A program made the position numbers and the translations under genes. From positions 1 to 29,924 of IMG/VR virus record IMGVR_UViG_3300046167_000053: 29,924 nt of DNA. The stretch is one strand, 5' to 3'. Origin of the DNA: a virus. Below are positions 7,721 through 18,766 of the stretch, piece after piece; the stretch's first letter is position 1, and every line of letters starts with the position of its first letter. The notes under the pieces were generated by a model, which was not told the DNA's origin, ran no database searches, and saw nothing but the letters and a program-made list of their open reading frames with translations.

Positions 7721-8755
7721 ATGGCAAATAAAAAATTTAGCGAATTTACAGTAAAAACTGACCCAGCAAATGTTGATTTCTTGGTCGGTTATGATGGTAC
7801 GGATAATGTCCGTATTGACCCATCTAATTTAGGTGGTGGTGGTGCTTCAGACTTGAACGGTCTTACAGATTGTTTAGTTGATACAGATAGCTTGTACGTT
7901 GGAGAAGTGCCGAGCGGTTTGAGTGGCAATCCTCAAGGAAATACTGTTCTTGGTATTGATGCGGGAAGCGGTTTAACATCTGGAAGTAATAATACTATTA
8001 TAGGTAACGACGCTGCTAAAGTTTTAACTACAAGCTCTAATAATGTTTTTGTAGGTTTTGAAGCTGGTAAATCACAAACAACTGGACAACAAGCTACTAT
8101 TGTAGGTTATCAAGCTGGTCGTGCATTAACAACTGGAAACAATAACACTTTAATAGGTTATCAAGCTGGAGTAGTAGTAACTGGTGCAGAAAACACTTTA
8201 CTTGGCTCTTTTGCTGGAAGAACTTTAACAAGTGGAACACAAAATACTATGCTTGGAGTTGGTTATAATGGTGGTGCTATTACAACTGGAAGCAACAATA
8301 CTGTTGTAGGTCTTTCTGCTGCTGCTTCTTCTACAAGTGTAAGCAACGAAATTACTTTAGGCAATTCAAGTATCACATCTTTACGTTGTGCGGTTACATC
8401 AATAACATCTTTATCAGATGAAAGAGATAAATCAGAAATAAAAGATTTAGAATACGGTTTGGCTTTTATTGATGCTTTACAACCAAGAGAATTTGTATGG
8501 GATAACAGACTAGAAACAACAGTAGATGTTGATGAAGATGGCAACGAAACAGAAGTAGAATTTTATTCAGCTAATAAAGGTAAAAAAGACTTTGGTTTTA
8601 TAGCACAAGAAGTTAGAGAACTAGACAATGATACTTTAAGATTGGTTTACTCTGAAAACGAAGATAGACTTGAATTAAGTTACGGAAAACTTGTGCCGAT
8701 ATTAGTGAAAGCAATACAAGAGTTAAAAGAAGAAGTTGAGTTGTTAAAGGGATAA
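7721..8755 (+). CDS. tail fibre with intramolecular chaperone (S74) domain
   Basis: A 344-residue trimeric-fibre-like protein. Residues 1-40 form an N-terminal attachment segment (KFSEFTVKTDPANVDFLVGY). Residues 74-215 are about eight degenerate repeats of 16-18 residues, consensus NTxxGxxAGxxLTTGxN, of the type that winds into a beta-helical fibre shaft. Residues about 230-344 form a peptidase S74 intramolecular chaperone domain: SLSDERDKSEIKDLEYGLAF, LQPREFVWDN, FGFIAQEVREL, LSYGKLVPILVKAIQELKEEV. In known S74 proteins this domain trims itself off at a Ser after the fibre trimerises. Here Ser230 or Ser232 is the likely cleavage Ser, with a nearby Lys. Likely a receptor-binding fibre. Confidence 0.85.
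   Translation: MANKKFSEFTVKTDPANVDFLVGYDGTDNVRIDPSNLGGGGASDLNGLTDCLVDTDSLYVGEVPSGLSGNPQGNTVLGIDAGSGLTSGSNNTIIGNDAAKVLTTSSNNVFVGFEAGKSQTTGQQATIVGYQAGRALTTGNNNTLIGYQAGVVVTGAENTLLGSFAGRTLTSGTQNTMLGVGYNGGAITTGSNNTVVGLSAAASSTSVSNEITLGNSSITSLRCAVTSITSLSDERDKSEIKDLEYGLAFIDALQPREFVWDNRLETTVDVDEDGNETEVEFYSANKGKKDFGFIAQEVRELDNDTLRLVYSENEDRLELSYGKLVPILVKAIQELKEEVELLKG
7940..8365 (+). repeat. degenerate tandem repeats in fibre gene
   Basis: About eight in-frame units of roughly 48-54 bases, each encoding NTxxGxxAGxxLTTGxN or a variant. The units have drifted at DNA level (only short blocks such as GGTTATCAAGCTGG recur), so recombination between them may change shaft length. Confidence 0.75.
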
Positions 8756-9846: not shown

Positions 9847-10315
9847 TTACAAAAAAAAGAACGGAACTACAAGAGTAGGCGATGCTTTAAGATGGCTCGT
9901 AAAACAAGGTAAGGAAGTAGCACCAGAACTATTGTCGGTTGTTGGTAGCGTTACTGGTATAGAACAATTAAAAGACCTTGCAGATAAAATAGGTAAAGAC
10001 GATAAACTATCGCAACCAGATAAAGAACTTCTACTTGAAGAACTGCGTTACGATATGATTGAGATGGAAGAAACCACAAAGCGATGGGTAAGCGACAACC
10101 AAACAGACAGCTACCTTACACGCAATATAAGACCATTAACACTTGCTTTTTTAACCGCCACACTATTTATTTATATAATATTAGATAGTTCGTTAGAAGG
10201 CTTTAAAATAGACCCTAACTGGATAGACTTACTTTCTTCACTTTTATTATTAGTCTATGGTGGGTATTTTGGTATGCGTAGTGCAGAGAAGATTACAAAG
10301 CATTGGAAAAAATAA
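9839..10315 (+). CDS. holin-like membrane protein (3TM holin family)
   Basis: A 158-residue protein. Residues 1-90 are soluble and helical, with a charged segment around KDDKLSQPDKELLLEELRYD. Then comes RNIRPLTLAFLTATLFIYII (membrane helix about 99-116), a short loop, a second helix about 127-145 (LLSSLLLLVYGGYFGMRS), and a basic end. The RNIRPLTL start of the membrane region and the YFGxRSxEK end match the GTA/3TM holin family. It ends the lysis cassette and the late block; a promoter-like region follows. It could work with or against the small membrane protein at 9321. Confidence 0.7.
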   Translation: MGDYKKKNGTTRVGDALRWLVKQGKEVAPELLSVVGSVTGIEQLKDLADKIGKDDKLSQPDKELLLEELRYDMIEMEETTKRWVSDNQTDSYLTRNIRPLTLAFLTATLFIYIILDSSLEGFKIDPNWIDLLSSLLLLVYGGYFGMRSAEKITKHWKK

Positions 10316-10321
10316 TTTTTT

Positions 10322-10414
10322 TTTCTAAAAATAAATATATAACTTTGTACCATTTATTATAAAAAACTGTTTTCTAAATATATAGATATAAATATATTTC
10401 TAAATAAATAGATA
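10322..10414. repeat. three imperfect copies of an AT-rich repeat
   Basis: TTTCTAAAAATAAATATAT (10322), TTTCTAAATATATAGATA (10371) and TTTCTAAATAAATAGATA (10397). They occupy most of the non-coding stretch between the lysis cassette and ninG and surround the -7 element at 10340. The second and third copies match at 17 of 18 positions. They may be operator sites or iteron-like replication sites. Evidence for function is lacking. Confidence 0.55.
10340..10347 (+). promoter_or_regulatory. Bacteroidota -7 element, promoter for ninG
   Basis: TAACTTTG is an exact match to TAnnTTTG. The expected -33 TTTG is replaced by a T-run (about 10316-10324). The leader to the start at 10470 would be about 115 bases, long for this genome, and contains two copies of the AT-rich repeat, suggesting regulation. 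Confidence 0.45.
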
Positions 10415-10469
10415 AAAAACATTAATAATAAATATAAGATATCTGTAGTGTATTCAAATGTGAAAACAA

Positions 10470-12226: not shown

Positions 12227-13090
12227 ATGACAGAAGAACAAACTACACAACAAATGTTGATGGAACTAATAAAAGAGGAGTGTACAATAGACACTACCGA
12301 AGTATTAGAGTATCCTCCAACCGCTTTAAGTTTAGGGGAAAAGACAATACAAACAAAAGGTGGCGATATTACAATACCAATTCCAATAGGAACTTACGGT
12401 AACTTCAGCTTCGTACAAGCACCACCAAAGACAAAGAAAACATTTTTTGCATCACTATTGGCATCAGTATATTTAAGCGGTGGTAATAACTTTGGCGGTA
12501 AGTTAAAAGGACACCGAGAGGGTAGATGCCTTATACACTTTGATACAGAGCAAGGGCATTGGCATAGCCAGAGAGTATTTAAAAGAGTTATAGATATGGC
12601 TAATGTTAGGGATGTAGGTTGTTATCAAACCTATGCCTTAAGAACAATAAGCTACAAACAAAGAATACAATTTATAGAATTTATACTAAAAGAAAACAAA
12701 GACAAAAACGGTTTAGTTGTTATTGATGGTGTGGCTGATTTAGTCAGCGATGTAAACAACCTTGAAGAAAGCAACTTATGTGTGCAAAAAATAATGGAGT
12801 GGTCAGCTAAATACAACTGCCATATAATAACTGTAATACATAGCAATTACGGAAGCGACAAACCAACTGGACACTTGGGTAGCTTTTTAGAAAAAAAGAC
12901 AGAAACACAAATACAATTAGAAGCAAACACAGTAAACAAGGAATGGGTAACAGTTAGTTGTAAGCGTTCAAGGGGTTATGCCTTTGAAACCTTTAGCTTT
13001 AGTATTAACGAGTTTGGGCTACCATTTGTAGTGGGCGAGATATACGACCCATTAGAATATTTTGTAACAACTAAAAAGAAACTATTATGA
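12227..13090 (+). CDS. RecA-fold ATPase, RepA/DnaB-helicase-like
   Basis: A 287-residue AAA_25/RepA-like ATPase, probably a replicative helicase or helicase loader for phage DNA. The P-loop at residues 65-72 reads APPKTKKT, lacking the usual Gly residues of GxxxxGKT but keeping the Lys-Thr. FDTEQ (105-109) is in the place of the catalytic Glu strand, and GLVVIDGVADLV (162-173) is the Walker B strand. HSNYGSDKPTGHLGS (about 206-220) is a sensor-like loop, as in RepA-type hexameric ATPases. It overlaps the next gene by four bases. No primase is visible in the genome, so priming is probably by the host. Confidence 0.7.
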   Translation: MTEEQTTQQMLMELIKEECTIDTTEVLEYPPTALSLGEKTIQTKGGDITIPIPIGTYGNFSFVQAPPKTKKTFFASLLASVYLSGGNNFGGKLKGHREGRCLIHFDTEQGHWHSQRVFKRVIDMANVRDVGCYQTYALRTISYKQRIQFIEFILKENKDKNGLVVIDGVADLVSDVNNLEESNLCVQKIMEWSAKYNCHIITVIHSNYGSDKPTGHLGSFLEKKTETQIQLEANTVNKEWVTVSCKRSRGYAFETFSFSINEFGLPFVVGEIYDPLEYFVTTKKKLL

Positions 13091-13935
13091 AAACAGTAAA
13101 TACAGTTAGTGGTGGTAAAACATCAAGCTACATAGCGGCTAATTACCCAGCTGATTATAATGTGTTTTCTTTAGTTAGAACAGACGATAAAAGATGTATG
13201 TTCCCAGACGATAAAATAAGACAACAAGTTAGTGATAGGTTAGGAACAGAGTTTATAGGCACATTAGAGGATGACACTATAATATATACTATGTTAGATT
13301 TAGAGCAACATATAGGTCAAAAGATTGATTGGGTTACTGGTAAAACTTTTGACGAGGTTATTGATAAGGGTGGCGGTACACTTCCAGACCCAATGCGAAG
13401 ATACTGTACAACTGAAATGAAAATGAAACCAATGTTTGAATGGTGGAGAAATAACGTCAATATACCTTGCGAGTTTAGATTGGGATTTAGAGCAAATGAA
13501 ACAAGACGAGCAAAAAGAACTTTAGGTAAAGTTAATAGTAATGGTTTTTTAGAAATGAAAGCAATAGTAGGAAAAAGAGGGACACTAAATAAATGGGCAG
13601 ATATTGAATGGCAAAAACCCACATTTCCTTTAATTGAAGATAACATATATAAAGATAATATAGAAGAATATTGGAAAGGTAAAAATGTTAGATTTGCCTA
13701 TATGAATAATTGTGTAGGTTGTTTTCATAAAACACCTATGTTAATTAAAAAAATGTATGAAAAACACCCCAATAAAATTAATTGGTTCGCATCAAAAGAA
13801 AGAGTAAAACATAAAAAAGATGTTTGGTATAAAGATAAAAATTTATCTTTTAAAGACATTATAAAATGGCAAACACAAACAGAATTATTTGACGATGACT
13901 TTAACGAATGTGACAGCGGATATTGTGGATTATAA
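13087..13935 (+). CDS. PAPS reductase-like PP-loop protein
   Basis: A 282-residue member of the adenine nucleotide alpha-hydrolase (PP-loop) superfamily. It has SGGKTSS at 8-14 (the PP-loop), RRYCTTEMKMKP at 104-115 (the Arg-Cys ... Lys motif of phosphosulfate-reductase-like enzymes) and NNCVGCFHK at 207-215, a Cys pair that could hold metal or an Fe-S cluster. The true PAPS reductase C-terminal ECGxH motif is absent; the end is CDSGYCGL. Phage members of this family are of unsettled function and are often discussed with DNA sulfur or base modification. The Mom-like gene at 18074 makes a DNA-modification role attractive but unproved. Confidence 0.75.
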   Translation: MKTVNTVSGGKTSSYIAANYPADYNVFSLVRTDDKRCMFPDDKIRQQVSDRLGTEFIGTLEDDTIIYTMLDLEQHIGQKIDWVTGKTFDEVIDKGGGTLPDPMRRYCTTEMKMKPMFEWWRNNVNIPCEFRLGFRANETRRAKRTLGKVNSNGFLEMKAIVGKRGTLNKWADIEWQKPTFPLIEDNIYKDNIEEYWKGKNVRFAYMNNCVGCFHKTPMLIKKMYEKHPNKINWFASKERVKHKKDVWYKDKNLSFKDIIKWQTQTELFDDDFNECDSGYCGL

Positions 13936-13946
13936 ATAAATAAAGA

Positions 13947-14441
13947 ATGAAAAAAAGCCTTGTTGAAATAGCCTATTTAAGACACCAAGATTGGTTAAGG
14001 GTAGTGTATGCCTTTGGATGTAACAAAAGTATGGCAGAGGACATTGTTATGAGTATGTACGAACAACTTATAAGAGATGTAGATAAGGGTTTAGACCTTT
14101 GGCATAATAACGATGTAAACATATACTACTGTTGGAAAGTGTTAAGAGGCATATACTTAAACACCCACAAAAAGGAAGCAAGGCAAATAAAAGAATACAT
14201 AGAAGAAATAGACGAACTGAAACAAGCAGAAGATTTAGGGATAGACGAAGTAGAATACGCTAAACGCAAAGACCAAATAGATGGCATATTAGATGAGCTA
14301 TACTGGTACGATAGAAAAGTATTTGAGATATGCGCAAGTGGTAAAAGCGTAGCAGCGTTAAGCAGAGAAACTGGTATAAGTTATTACTCACTTTACAACA
14401 CATACACGAACGCAAAGAAACACATAAAAGAACAGCTTTGA
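13947..14441 (+). CDS. sigma-70-like (ECF-type) transcription factor
   Basis: A 164-residue protein laid out like a small sigma factor. Residues about 1-60 resemble region 2 (HQDWLRVVYAFGCNKSMAED, then IVMSMYEQLIRDVDKG). The linker (about 60-110) is charged, and residues about 110-164 resemble region 4 with a helix-turn-helix: YDRKVFEICASGKSVAALSR followed by ETGISYYSLYNTYTNAKKHI. Such genes occur in many Bacteroidota phages. If active, it could direct host RNA polymerase to the repeated late-gene motif described at 1243, 3530, 19885, 21418 and 28875. A terminase-small-like HTH protein is the alternative. Confidence 0.6.
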   Translation: MKKSLVEIAYLRHQDWLRVVYAFGCNKSMAEDIVMSMYEQLIRDVDKGLDLWHNNDVNIYYCWKVLRGIYLNTHKKEARQIKEYIEEIDELKQAEDLGIDEVEYAKRKDQIDGILDELYWYDRKVFEICASGKSVAALSRETGISYYSLYNTYTNAKKHIKEQL

Positions 14442-14947
14442 TTAACATAAGTGTAGACATAGAAACAAAGAGAATGGTTTGGGATTTTTTATCTACAAAC
14501 AATGTTGGTAATAGGAGTAAGGCTAATGGTAGCAAAGAAGAACAATATGTAGGTTTATTAGGAGAAGTTAAAGTAAAGCAACTTTTAAATATAGACACAA
14601 AACTAATAAATGGATTTGATGGTGGATTTGATTTAAAATATAAAAACAAAAGAATAGATGTAAAAACAATGGGTAGAACTGTTGATGTAAAACCTTACTA
14701 TGTTAATAATTTTATATCTTACCAAAAAGACTTTGATTGTGATATTTATATATTCTGTTCTTTAAATAAAAAAACAAGTAATTTAACTGTATGCGGATGG
14801 GTTACTAAAAATGAGTTATTAGAACGTTCTAAATTTTATGAAGAAGGAACTATAAGAACACGAACAAACAAAACTACGTTTACTTTAAAAGCACCAACAT
14901 ACGAAATAGATAATAATAAATTAAACGATATAAATACTTTAATATGA
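14438..14947 (+). CDS. PD-(D/E)XK-type nuclease-like protein
   Basis: A 169-residue protein with a nuclease-fold signature: LLGEVKVKQLL (Glu43), GFDGGFDLKYKNKRIDVKT with Asp65 and the DxK pair Asp74-Lys76, then a beta-strand DIYIFCSL. This order (Glu, Asp, Asp-x-Lys) is that of PD-(D/E)XK endonucleases. The start is TTG at 14438, overlapping the previous stop as TTGA; the next Met would remove the first twelve residues. It may be a DNA-end or branch-cutting enzyme, or a host-DNA degrading restriction-like enzyme. Substrate not predictable. Confidence 0.6.
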   Translation: MINISVDIETKRMVWDFLSTNNVGNRSKANGSKEEQYVGLLGEVKVKQLLNIDTKLINGFDGGFDLKYKNKRIDVKTMGRTVDVKPYYVNNFISYQKDFDCDIYIFCSLNKKTSNLTVCGWVTKNELLERSKFYEEGTIRTRTNKTTFTLKAPTYEIDNNKLNDINTLI

Positions 14948-15084: not shown

Positions 15085-15269
15085 AACACAGAAAACAATG
15101 GGAACAATTTAAGGCAGAGGTTACAACCAAATTAACACAACCACAATACAAGCTATTATGTAATTTGCATCACATTTACTTTAATCATCACTATTTTGAA
15201 CCCTGCAGTTGCCGACCTAAAGAGTTAAAACGATGGATAGCCGATATTGACAGACTATACAATAAATGA
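15075..15269 (+). CDS. small His/Cys-rich protein
   Basis: A 64-residue protein starting MEIEHRKQWEQFKAEVTTKL. The middle holds a dense group of possible metal ligands: CNLHHIYFNHHYFEPCSCR, with two His pairs and a CSC motif, followed by an Arg/Lys/Trp helix. It could bind zinc. It lies between two nuclease-like genes and overlaps both, so it may be a small nucleic-acid-binding protein. No family recognised. Confidence 0.55.
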   Translation: MEIEHRKQWEQFKAEVTTKLTQPQYKLLCNLHHIYFNHHYFEPCSCRPKELKRWIADIDRLYNK

Positions 15270-15679
15270 TAAAAAATGTACACAAGTGGGAACAAGCTGT
15301 AATAATGCTTTTAAATTTAGATGGATGGAACTTAACACATACTGGCGATGGCTTTGAGCATTACGATGCAATAGGCACAAGCCCTAAAGGAACAGAGGTA
15401 GTAATTGAAATGAAGTTCAGAAACAAATACTACAAAGAAAAACTATTAGAGGTGTACAAGTACGACAAGCTAATAGAAACTGGTAAGATAGCCCTATACT
15501 TTGTTAATGACCCTAAAGGGAATTATATGTATTGGCTAAACAACCTAACAGACTTAAAGAAGAAAGATATGTACTGCCCAGATACAACGCTATGGACTAA
15601 AAAGAAACTATTAAAGCCTTGTTACTTGCTTGACGAAGCACAAGCATCAATAATTAATTTAAACGGATTTACAAAATAG
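15266..15679 (+). CDS. PD-(D/E)XK nuclease-like protein
   Basis: A 137-residue protein with a compact PD-(D/E)XK core: GFEHYDAIGTS (Asp34), then EVVIEMKFRNK with Glu48-x-Lys50, a helix KEKLLEVYKYDKLI and a further strand KIALYFVNDPKG. The arrangement matches Holliday-junction-resolvase-like or restriction-like nucleases of small phages. It ends the operon that starts at 11094; a new promoter follows. Its activity and substrate cannot be told from sequence. Confidence 0.6.
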   Translation: MIKNVHKWEQAVIMLLNLDGWNLTHTGDGFEHYDAIGTSPKGTEVVIEMKFRNKYYKEKLLEVYKYDKLIETGKIALYFVNDPKGNYMYWLNNLTDLKKKDMYCPDTTLWTKKKLLKPCYLLDEAQASIINLNGFTK

Positions 15680-17258: not shown

Positions 17259-18077
17259 ATGAAAACAAAAACAAAAACAAAAAGAACAATTTACACAAAA
17301 AAAGATTTTAATAATGTAGTAATACCGACTTGGCAAAGATGGAAGAACGAAAAGAATGTTAAGGATTTAGCGGAAGCAGTTTATGAAAATGGACAGCTTC
17401 GCGATGTACTTATATGTGTTACAAAGGATGGAACTAAAATATTAACAGATGGTAATCACTTGTATAACGCAGTTTTTAATTGTCTTAAATATAGAAAGAT
17501 TAATGTTTTAGAGAAACAAGTAAAAGACAATGAAGAAGCAAGGAAAACTTTTATATCATTTAACACAAGGGGGAAATCTTTAAAGGTTATAGATTATATT
17601 GTTAGCTATGCTGGAAGTGGTAATAAAGATTATAAAAGATTTTTATTAGAAGTTATGAAAAGTCCTAACAACTTAAAAGAAGCTGAAAATGTTTATGGTA
17701 AACTTTTCACTATACCAGCTTTAGTTTCTGTTTTTTTAGGGAAAACAAATAAGGTTAAAAAAGGTATATGCGAATTGCAAAAAAATCACAATAGACTTTT
17801 AGAGTTGGTTGAGTATTTAGGTCAAAACTATTTGTATGATGGAAGATTAATAAAGCATCTTAACAAGAATGGTAAGTCAATGAGGTTAAATGGTGGTAGC
17901 ATTATACCAGTTTTAAACAAAGTTAAAAGGAACGATAAAATAATGTCTATGTCAAATAAAGAGATATTAAACTTACTAATTGATTTTACTTTTTATCATT
18001 ACAACTCAATGGAGAATTGTACTTTTACTAAAGATGCTGCGGAGAAAAGTTTTAATAGTTATTTACAAACACTATGA
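17259..18077 (+). CDS. ParB/Srx-like domain protein paired with Mom-like gene
   Basis: A 272-residue protein. Residues about 15-80 resemble the ParB/Sulfiredoxin fold: VIPTWQRWKNEKNVKDLAEA, then ENGQLRDVLICV and KILTDGNHLYNAVFNCL, matching the ParB pattern of a preference/partner sentence followed by xDGxHR. The Arg of that motif is replaced by Tyr here. The rest (100-272) is helical and lacks a DNA-binding motif I recognise. It overlaps the Mom-like gene by four bases, so the two act together. ParB-like proteins next to modification enzymes are known in phages, where they are thought to act as ATP/CTP-using partners. Role in base modification is inferred. Confidence 0.65.
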   Translation: MKTKTKTKRTIYTKKDFNNVVIPTWQRWKNEKNVKDLAEAVYENGQLRDVLICVTKDGTKILTDGNHLYNAVFNCLKYRKINVLEKQVKDNEEARKTFISFNTRGKSLKVIDYIVSYAGSGNKDYKRFLLEVMKSPNNLKEAENVYGKLFTIPALVSVFLGKTNKVKKGICELQKNHNRLLELVEYLGQNYLYDGRLIKHLNKNGKSMRLNGGSIIPVLNKVKRNDKIMSMSNKEILNLLIDFTFYHYNSMENCTFTKDAAEKSFNSYLQTL

Positions 18078-18766
18078 AAAAACAATATATATACTCAACA
18101 CAGTCATCTTTGTGGGGGGATGCAGTATGTTTAGGTTTTGGCACAGATGAATTTTATATAAAAGAAATAGACAGAAAACTTGCAAATGATATTATAGTTA
18201 AAAATCATTATAGTGGCAAATTTTATAATGGCACTTATATACATCTTGGTTTATTTAATAGTAATGAAATAATAGGTGTATTGCAATATGGATACGCTAT
18301 GAACCCAGCAAGTTGTGCAAGTGTTGTAGAGGGAACAAAAAAAAATGAATATTTAGAACTAAACAGAATGTGGATAGCAGATGATGTAGGTCAATACCCA
18401 GAGAGTAGAGCAATAAGTTACTCACTTAAATATATAAGACGTAAATACCCTAAAATAAAATGGATACAAAGCTTTGCTGACGAAAGATGTGGTGGTTTTG
18501 GAATAGTTTATCAGGCTTGTTCTTTTGGTTATTATGGAGAGCATCTTAATAAATTTTGGGAACTTGATGGAGAAACTTTTCATAATTCTATTAAAACAAG
18601 CGAAAAAGCTGGTAAGAGGGGTTATAATTTGCTTAACAATCCTAAAAATAAAGATAGAGTAATAAGACACGAATTAAGACAATTTAGGTACATAAAGTTT
18701 TTAGACCAAAGAGAAAAAAAGAAATGTAAACATAAAGAGCAGCCATATCCAAAACATTATAAATAA
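18074..18766 (+). CDS. Mom-like DNA modification protein (GNAT-type fold)
   Basis: A 230-residue protein of the Mom type. Phage Mu Mom adds a methylcarbamoyl group to adenine and shields phage DNA from host restriction. Evidence: NHYSGK at 44-49 (Mu Mom and relatives carry a similar HYSG), YIHLGLFNSNEIIGVLQYGY (55-74), ELNRMWIADD (95-103), SRAISYSLKYIRRKYPKIKW (111-130) and SFADERCGGFGIVYQACSFG (133-152), the last part resembling the GNAT acyl-CoA-binding core. The C-terminus is basic (about 195-230), suiting DNA contact. It is paired with the ParB-like gene. It could modify a base other than adenine; the exact product is not predictable. Confidence 0.75.
   Translation: MKKQYIYSTQSSLWGDAVCLGFGTDEFYIKEIDRKLANDIIVKNHYSGKFYNGTYIHLGLFNSNEIIGVLQYGYAMNPASCASVVEGTKKNEYLELNRMWIADDVGQYPESRAISYSLKYIRRKYPKIKWIQSFADERCGGFGIVYQACSFGYYGEHLNKFWELDGETFHNSIKTSEKAGKRGYNLLNNPKNKDRVIRHELRQFRYIKFLDQREKKKCKHKEQPYPKHYK

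Follow-up and report, generated by a model that had tools for sequence, protein, structure and literature searches.

The window analysed here is the full 29,924 bases of a virus record (IMG/VR record IMGVR_UViG_3300046167_000053), the large terminase subunit of which is 55% identical to that of Nonlabens phage P12024L and approximately 46% identical to those of Riemerella phages. From this similarity, the carrier, an uncultured phage, probably has its host in the Flavobacteriia. On the plus strand, a gene at 17259..18077 encodes a 272-residue ParB/Srx-fold protein resembling GmrS/DUF262 (hereafter the ParB-like protein), a putative accessory factor, and mom, at 18074..18766, encodes a 230-residue, GNAT-fold member of the Mom family of DNA adenine modification enzymes. 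The open reading frames share the ATGA at 18074..18077, in which the stop codon of the ParB-like gene overlaps the start of mom, confirming the four-base overlap reported in the initial annotation, and we consider the gene pair real. A moderately stable RNA fold (z -2.4) is predicted across the mom start at 18020..18120 and might influence translation.

The product of 18074..18766 is a true Mom. It matched PF25680 across the entire profile (1-202 of 202) with 237.9 bits against a curated cut-off of 27.1 (E=1.1e-70), matched phrog_1384, 'Mom-like DNA modification protein', at E=7.7e-57, and aligned with Mu Mom in tblastn along 98% of its length at 44.8% identity, with values of 45-48% across comparisons. 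Against the sequence of 8bv8, the crystal structure of Mu Mom, phmmer gave E=2.9e-61. The predicted model (pLDDT 86.9) matched 8bv8 with a Foldseek E of 4e-27 and a TM of 0.83-0.86, and with a VIA Z of 27.8 (rmsd 2.5 over 217 residues), the next GNAT enzymes following at Z of approximately 12; the comparison with Mu Mom that the initial annotation had proposed as a check thus places the protein with Mom and the GNAT enzymes. The 8bv8 entry is described as the inactive Mu Mom mutant S124A, position 124 being Ala in the structure. S111 of the window Mom aligns with Mu S124, and this Ser is invariant in our Mom alignment set A3. Across 24 diverse Moms there is no variation at H45, Y46, E95, L96, R98, D136, G143, Y146, R205, or Y206, and the first two of these belong to the HYSG motif (45-48) by which the protein had originally been called Mom-like. 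DNA base modification, also put forward there, is strongly supported by the sequence, the fold, and the key conserved Ser of this enzyme.

Mu Mom converts adenine to N6-(methylcarbamoyl)adenine, a modification with an anti-restriction role, and by homology the adduct in this phage should be the same or something close to it. From the homology of the two enzymes we infer that Mom very probably modifies adenines of the phage genome and shields it from restriction. In Mu and in the window alike, an overlapping gene lies directly upstream of mom, but in Mu this gene encodes Com, a zinc-binding translational activator, whereas in the window it encodes the 272-residue ParB/Srx-like protein.

The window Mom further differs from Mu Mom in that, within the window's phage group, the loop at residues 166-202 is a mobile cassette. 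In the window it occupies 18569..18679 on the plus strand, belongs to class c5 (GETFHNSIKTSEKAGKRGYNLLNNPKNKDRVIRHEL), and lies in the model between the β strands 152-164 and 197-209. Among 85 nonredundant Moms of the group, these residues fell into 12 classes, and in 245 pairs of Moms the segment 166-200 was less than 45% identical while the rest was at least 80% identical; 35-residue segments starting before residue 151 gave 0 discordant pairs in the same set of Moms. The best pair, from records L225 and L011, shared 98% identity outside the cassette and 28% inside it, and at the DNA level the two mom genes dropped from 97-100% identity to approximately 40% for approximately 150 bases before rising again. 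On a tree built from the sequences without the loop, cassette classes changed 29 times where 11 changes would suffice, and one class was found on Mom backbones just 64-72% identical to each other. Cassette exchange within the Mom of this phage group is a new observation. It is not a general property of Mom proteins: among 43 proteobacterial or Mu-like Moms, in which this region varies as well, only 1 discordant pair was seen (thresholds 75%/40%).

The corresponding region of GNAT enzymes helps to form the acceptor site, and we lean slightly toward the view that the cassette is the part of Mom that recognises the DNA target. The arrangement recalls type I restriction-modification systems, in which specificity domains of HsdS are exchanged. 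Both have a discrete, exchangeable segment set in a conserved frame, but the segment of the window Mom, with its putative role in specificity, sits within the catalytic enzyme itself.

The initial annotation had called the product of 17259..18077 ParB/Srx-like, and it is indeed a ParB/Srx-fold protein, nearest to GmrS/DUF262. It matched phrog_12305 (E=7.4e-7) and, weakly, PF03235 (GmrSD_N; 20.0 bits, under the Pfam gathering cut-off of 33.2), and weak matches to PF03235, every one below the curated cut-off, were found in all 11 family members searched. In a moderate AlphaFold model (pLDDT 69), an N-terminal ParB/Srx domain spanning approximately residues 1-106 is followed by a helical C-terminal part. 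With this model, the top Foldseek matches for residues 1-106 were all ParB, Noc, KorB, or Srx structures (best E=1.6e-4), and the similarities to ParB-N (Z 7.2 over 95 residues) and Srx (Z 6.0) were both under a Z of 8. GmrSD and DUF1524 chains were absent from the list of PDB fold matches, an absence that carries no evidential weight. The window protein had no match to PF02195 (ParB_N) at E 0.1, a family that the ParB partners of Mom in L089 and L184 do match, and the domain search matched no DUF1524, HNH, or other nuclease domain in the ParB-like protein or in Mom. Neither a search of 84,980 bacterial and archaeal genomes with the profile of the ParB-like protein nor a single-protein tblastn search of 50,697 phage records found a relative.

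Three motifs, QR, DGQ(Q/H)R, and FxxxN, are common to GmrS and DGQHR proteins, and the His and Arg of the corresponding motif in sulfiredoxin bind the phosphates of ATP (PMC4619093). The window protein keeps QR (Q26-R27) and FxxxN (F98-ISF-N102), and 37 of the 39 nonredundant family members carry both WQRW and FxxFN. The place of DGQ(Q/H)R is taken by DGNHL (residues 64-68; 17448..17462 on the plus strand), a degenerate form of the nucleotide-pocket motif that retains the His but has Leu68 instead of the Arg. This Leu is invariant in an 11-member alignment, and LTDG(A/N/K)HL was present in 36/39 nonredundant members. The initial annotation was therefore right that DGNHLYNA is altered, but the Tyr that it named as the changed residue is ruled out, Leu68 occupying the place of the Arg. 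Other ParB partners of Mom retain the Arg (those of L021/L029, L028/L030/L210/L211, L225, Psychrobacter phage Y8A, and the Clostridia). Because the phosphate-binding Arg of Srx is Leu in this family, NTP hydrolysis by the ParB-like protein appears doubtful. Its likeness to the GmrS/DUF262 (PF03235) and DGQHR/DndB families lies in the weak profile match of all members and in the retained QR, FxxxN, and DG.H; the differences from GmrS/DUF262 are scores below the Pfam cut-off, Leu for the motif Arg, a lack of the DUF1524 nuclease, and a gene that adjoins mom.

The association of the two genes is close. When IMG/VR was scanned with the ParB-like protein, 12 contigs were returned, and in 12/12 mom lay directly downstream with the identical four-base overlap. 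A profile of the ParB-like family alone, which holds no information on Mom, returned 49 viral contigs, most of them pieces of related phages from metagenomes (numbers refer to contigs except where marked nonredundant), and mom adjoined the ParB-like gene in 47 of them, downstream in 45 and upstream in 2. The exceptions were L134, cut off by the contig end at the flank that carries mom in its closest relatives, and L132, in which an N6_N4 DNA methylase gene lies two genes from the ParB-like gene. Because most of the 49 contigs come from related phages, they represent few independent linkage events, and because the outer neighbours of the ParB-like gene differ (an exonuclease in 14, a homologue of o137 in 11, and a FEN gene in 7), the linkage is more than one frozen gene order.

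Several genes near the pair deserve mention in their own right. The o137 gene of the window (15266-15679) is kept in many Mom-bearing relatives, immediately upstream of the ParB-like gene in 11. Together with 14438-14947 it is a small gene that by eye resembles PD-(D/E)XK nucleases (GFDLKYKNKRIDVKT; YDAIG...EVVIEMKFR), and the products of both match no Pfam family. N6_N4-type DNA methylase genes were also found near Mom in L035, L047, and L057, as near the ParB-like gene in L132, and in each of two unrelated phages a gene of dATP/dGTP diphosphohydrolase type lies close to the ParB-Mom pair (L034:2935-3276 and Psychrobacter phage Y8A 4710-5015).

Mom also occurs without the ParB-like gene. In L014 and L015, the Moms of which are 98% identical to that of the window, the ATG of mom overlaps the stop codon of the exonuclease gene directly and by the same ATGA; the ParB-like gene thus sits between exonuclease and mom as a cleanly inserted, dispensable unit. 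Because so similar a Mom is found without it, we regard the ParB-like gene as an accessory. No annotated ParB lies beside Mom in phages Mu, PAN70, pAEv1818, Liebe, vB_EfaS_159, and a Porphyromonas phage. For 39 nonredundant pairs, the identity matrices of the ParB-like protein and Mom were only weakly correlated (Mantel r = 0.22), which rules out a tightly co-diverging pair, and this reshuffling of alleles therefore counts against a finely co-evolved ParB-Mom complex. Whatever its role, the ParB-like protein is compatible with many Mom loop classes, and Mom tolerates several types of ParB. We found no description of a ParB-Mom pair in the open literature searched, and an earlier mention is possible.

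The slot beside Mom is also filled by other ParB/Srx subfamilies. It is occupied by a distinct ParB/Srx protein, approximately 24-26% identical, in L021/L029, by an EGQHR-type protein in L028/L030/L210/L211, by an EGHHR-type protein in L225, and by a PF02195-type ParB in Psychrobacter phage Y8A, while Clostridia genomes show the order ParB_N-Mom-Mom, with an adjoining terminase small-subunit gene in L184, where the locus was checked. Unrelated ParB genes precede mom in L225 and L011, although the two moms share 98% identity beyond the loop. It is this recurrence of different ParB/Srx subfamilies beside Mom, although not universal, that argues most strongly for a functional tie between the two. 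ParB/Srx domains are also found fused to N6_N4 DNA methylases (phrog_498; L184:7281-8579), and the N-terminal part of phrog_498 is matched by the ParB proteins that accompany Mom in Psychrobacter phage Y8A and the Clostridia. In these fusions, as beside mom, a ParB/Srx domain is coupled to an enzyme acting on DNA bases, but the ParB-like protein of the window is encoded by a separate gene and belongs to a separate subfamily.

Tandem moms in overlapping reading frames were observed in large phages (L067, L070-L074, L078-L080, L084, and L088) and in the Clostridia (L181-L189); the two copies have diverged and could act on different targets. In L063, a full-length mom (8001-8702) is accompanied on one contig by a second, 5'-truncated copy (9976-10464) that is identical in the aligned sequence.

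Based on these data, we propose that Mom, a GNAT-fold enzyme, would modify genomic adenines of the phage, the product probably being N6-(methylcarbamoyl)adenine, the adduct of Mu, and that this would protect the genome from host restriction. The ParB/Srx-like protein would be translated from the message of mom as a dispensable accessory to the modification step, binding DNA and/or nucleotides and helping or tuning Mom much as DpdB does DpdA or DndB the Dnd enzymes, while swaps of the cassette would let related phages change the modified target and keep the catalytic body and the partner. We estimate the probability of this model as a whole at roughly 60%. For the role of the ParB-like protein as an accessory acting through DNA and/or nucleotide binding, we would give even chances. 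DpdB, a ParB-like ATPase, is required for base insertion with DpdA, and some clusters have been suggested to manage without it (PMC12839542); phosphorothioation has a ParB-superfamily regulator of its own, DndB, which is reported to act on transcription in an ATP-dependent way (PMC10853773). The DpdB/DpdA system for 7-deazaguanine resembles the window in placing a ParB-like protein, with suggested dispensability in some clusters, beside a base-modifying enzyme (PMC12839542), but the chemistry of that enzyme is another one, and the only NCBIfam DpdB match came from L028, not from the window protein, and was marginal (E=0.016).

The main rival to this model is that the ParB-like protein controls when mom is expressed or how strongly, in the way that Com acts on Mu mom and DndB on dnd, and has no role in the chemistry. 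Its gene is placed directly upstream of mom and overlapping it, as com is in Mu, the RNA fold noted above (z -2.4) spans the mom start, DndB has been reported to act as a transcriptional regulator dependent on ATP (PMC10853773), and close relatives have mom alone, all of which would suit such a regulator. However, no Com-like sequence was seen, the ParB-like gene lies downstream of mom in L034 and L133, and the mom start is unchanged behind unrelated ParB genes or the exonuclease, with no conserved leader recognisable by eye, and we hold regulation of this kind to be possible but the less probable role. Nucleases and NTPases among the ParB/Srx and GmrS relatives (PMC4619093; PMC12839542) point to another role, that of a nickase or NTPase effector directed at unmodified DNA of the host or of rival phages, with Mom marking self, as in a restriction-modification pair. 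This is improbable: no HNH/DUF1524 or other nuclease domain was matched, Leu takes the place of the pocket Arg across the family, and Moms without a ParB, together with ParB proteins swapped across Mom loop classes, misfit a matched pair.

The other two alternatives concern the cassette and the chemistry. Ordinary fast divergence or relaxed constraint, with no functional exchange of recognition, might explain the loop differences, and in Mu-like Moms, too, conservation is lowest in the region 166-202; but the classes are discrete and have the abrupt DNA borders seen between L225 and L011, one class is shared by backbones as distant as those described above, and against the 245 discordant pairs here stands a single one among the 43 proteobacterial Moms, in which the region is similarly variable, and we consider such divergence a poor candidate. 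As for the chemistry, the initial annotation correctly described the PP-loop gene at 13087-13935 as PAPS-reductase-like (phrog_424, E=2.3e-17) but tied it to Mom and suggested that the two might make a sulfur-containing or otherwise novel adduct. The gene does share the window with mom, and Psychrobacter phage Y8A likewise has a PAPS reductase gene, a ParB, and a Mom. It lies 4 kb from mom, however, with several genes between them, is present in 2/30 Mom-bearing records and missing from the other 28, and in relatives that keep Mom the genes flanking it adjoin each other without it. This co-occurrence and synteny rule out the PAPS-like gene as part of the Mom system, and joint sulfur or novel chemistry is unsupported and exceedingly unlikely. 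Elsewhere, L054:3830-5154 contains two consecutive PAPS-reductase-like matches, the first of which is broken by two stop codons.

More tentatively, the Moms of these flavobacterial phages may be modular, with a constant catalytic body, a traded cassette of approximately 37 residues that sets the DNA target, and interchangeable ParB/Srx proteins acting as loaders or licensors, some of them, like that of the window, with an altered nucleotide pocket. If true, this would be a two-gene type of DNA hypermodification that recurs and can switch its specificity rapidly. The L225/L011 pair offers natural sequences with which both the site choice of Mom and its need for a partner can be put to a direct test. 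Were a ParB/Srx partner of Mom to prove recurrent, Mom would join a pattern of ParB-superfamily proteins in DNA-modification systems that already includes DndB, DpdB, GmrS, SspE, and the ParB-methylase fusions.
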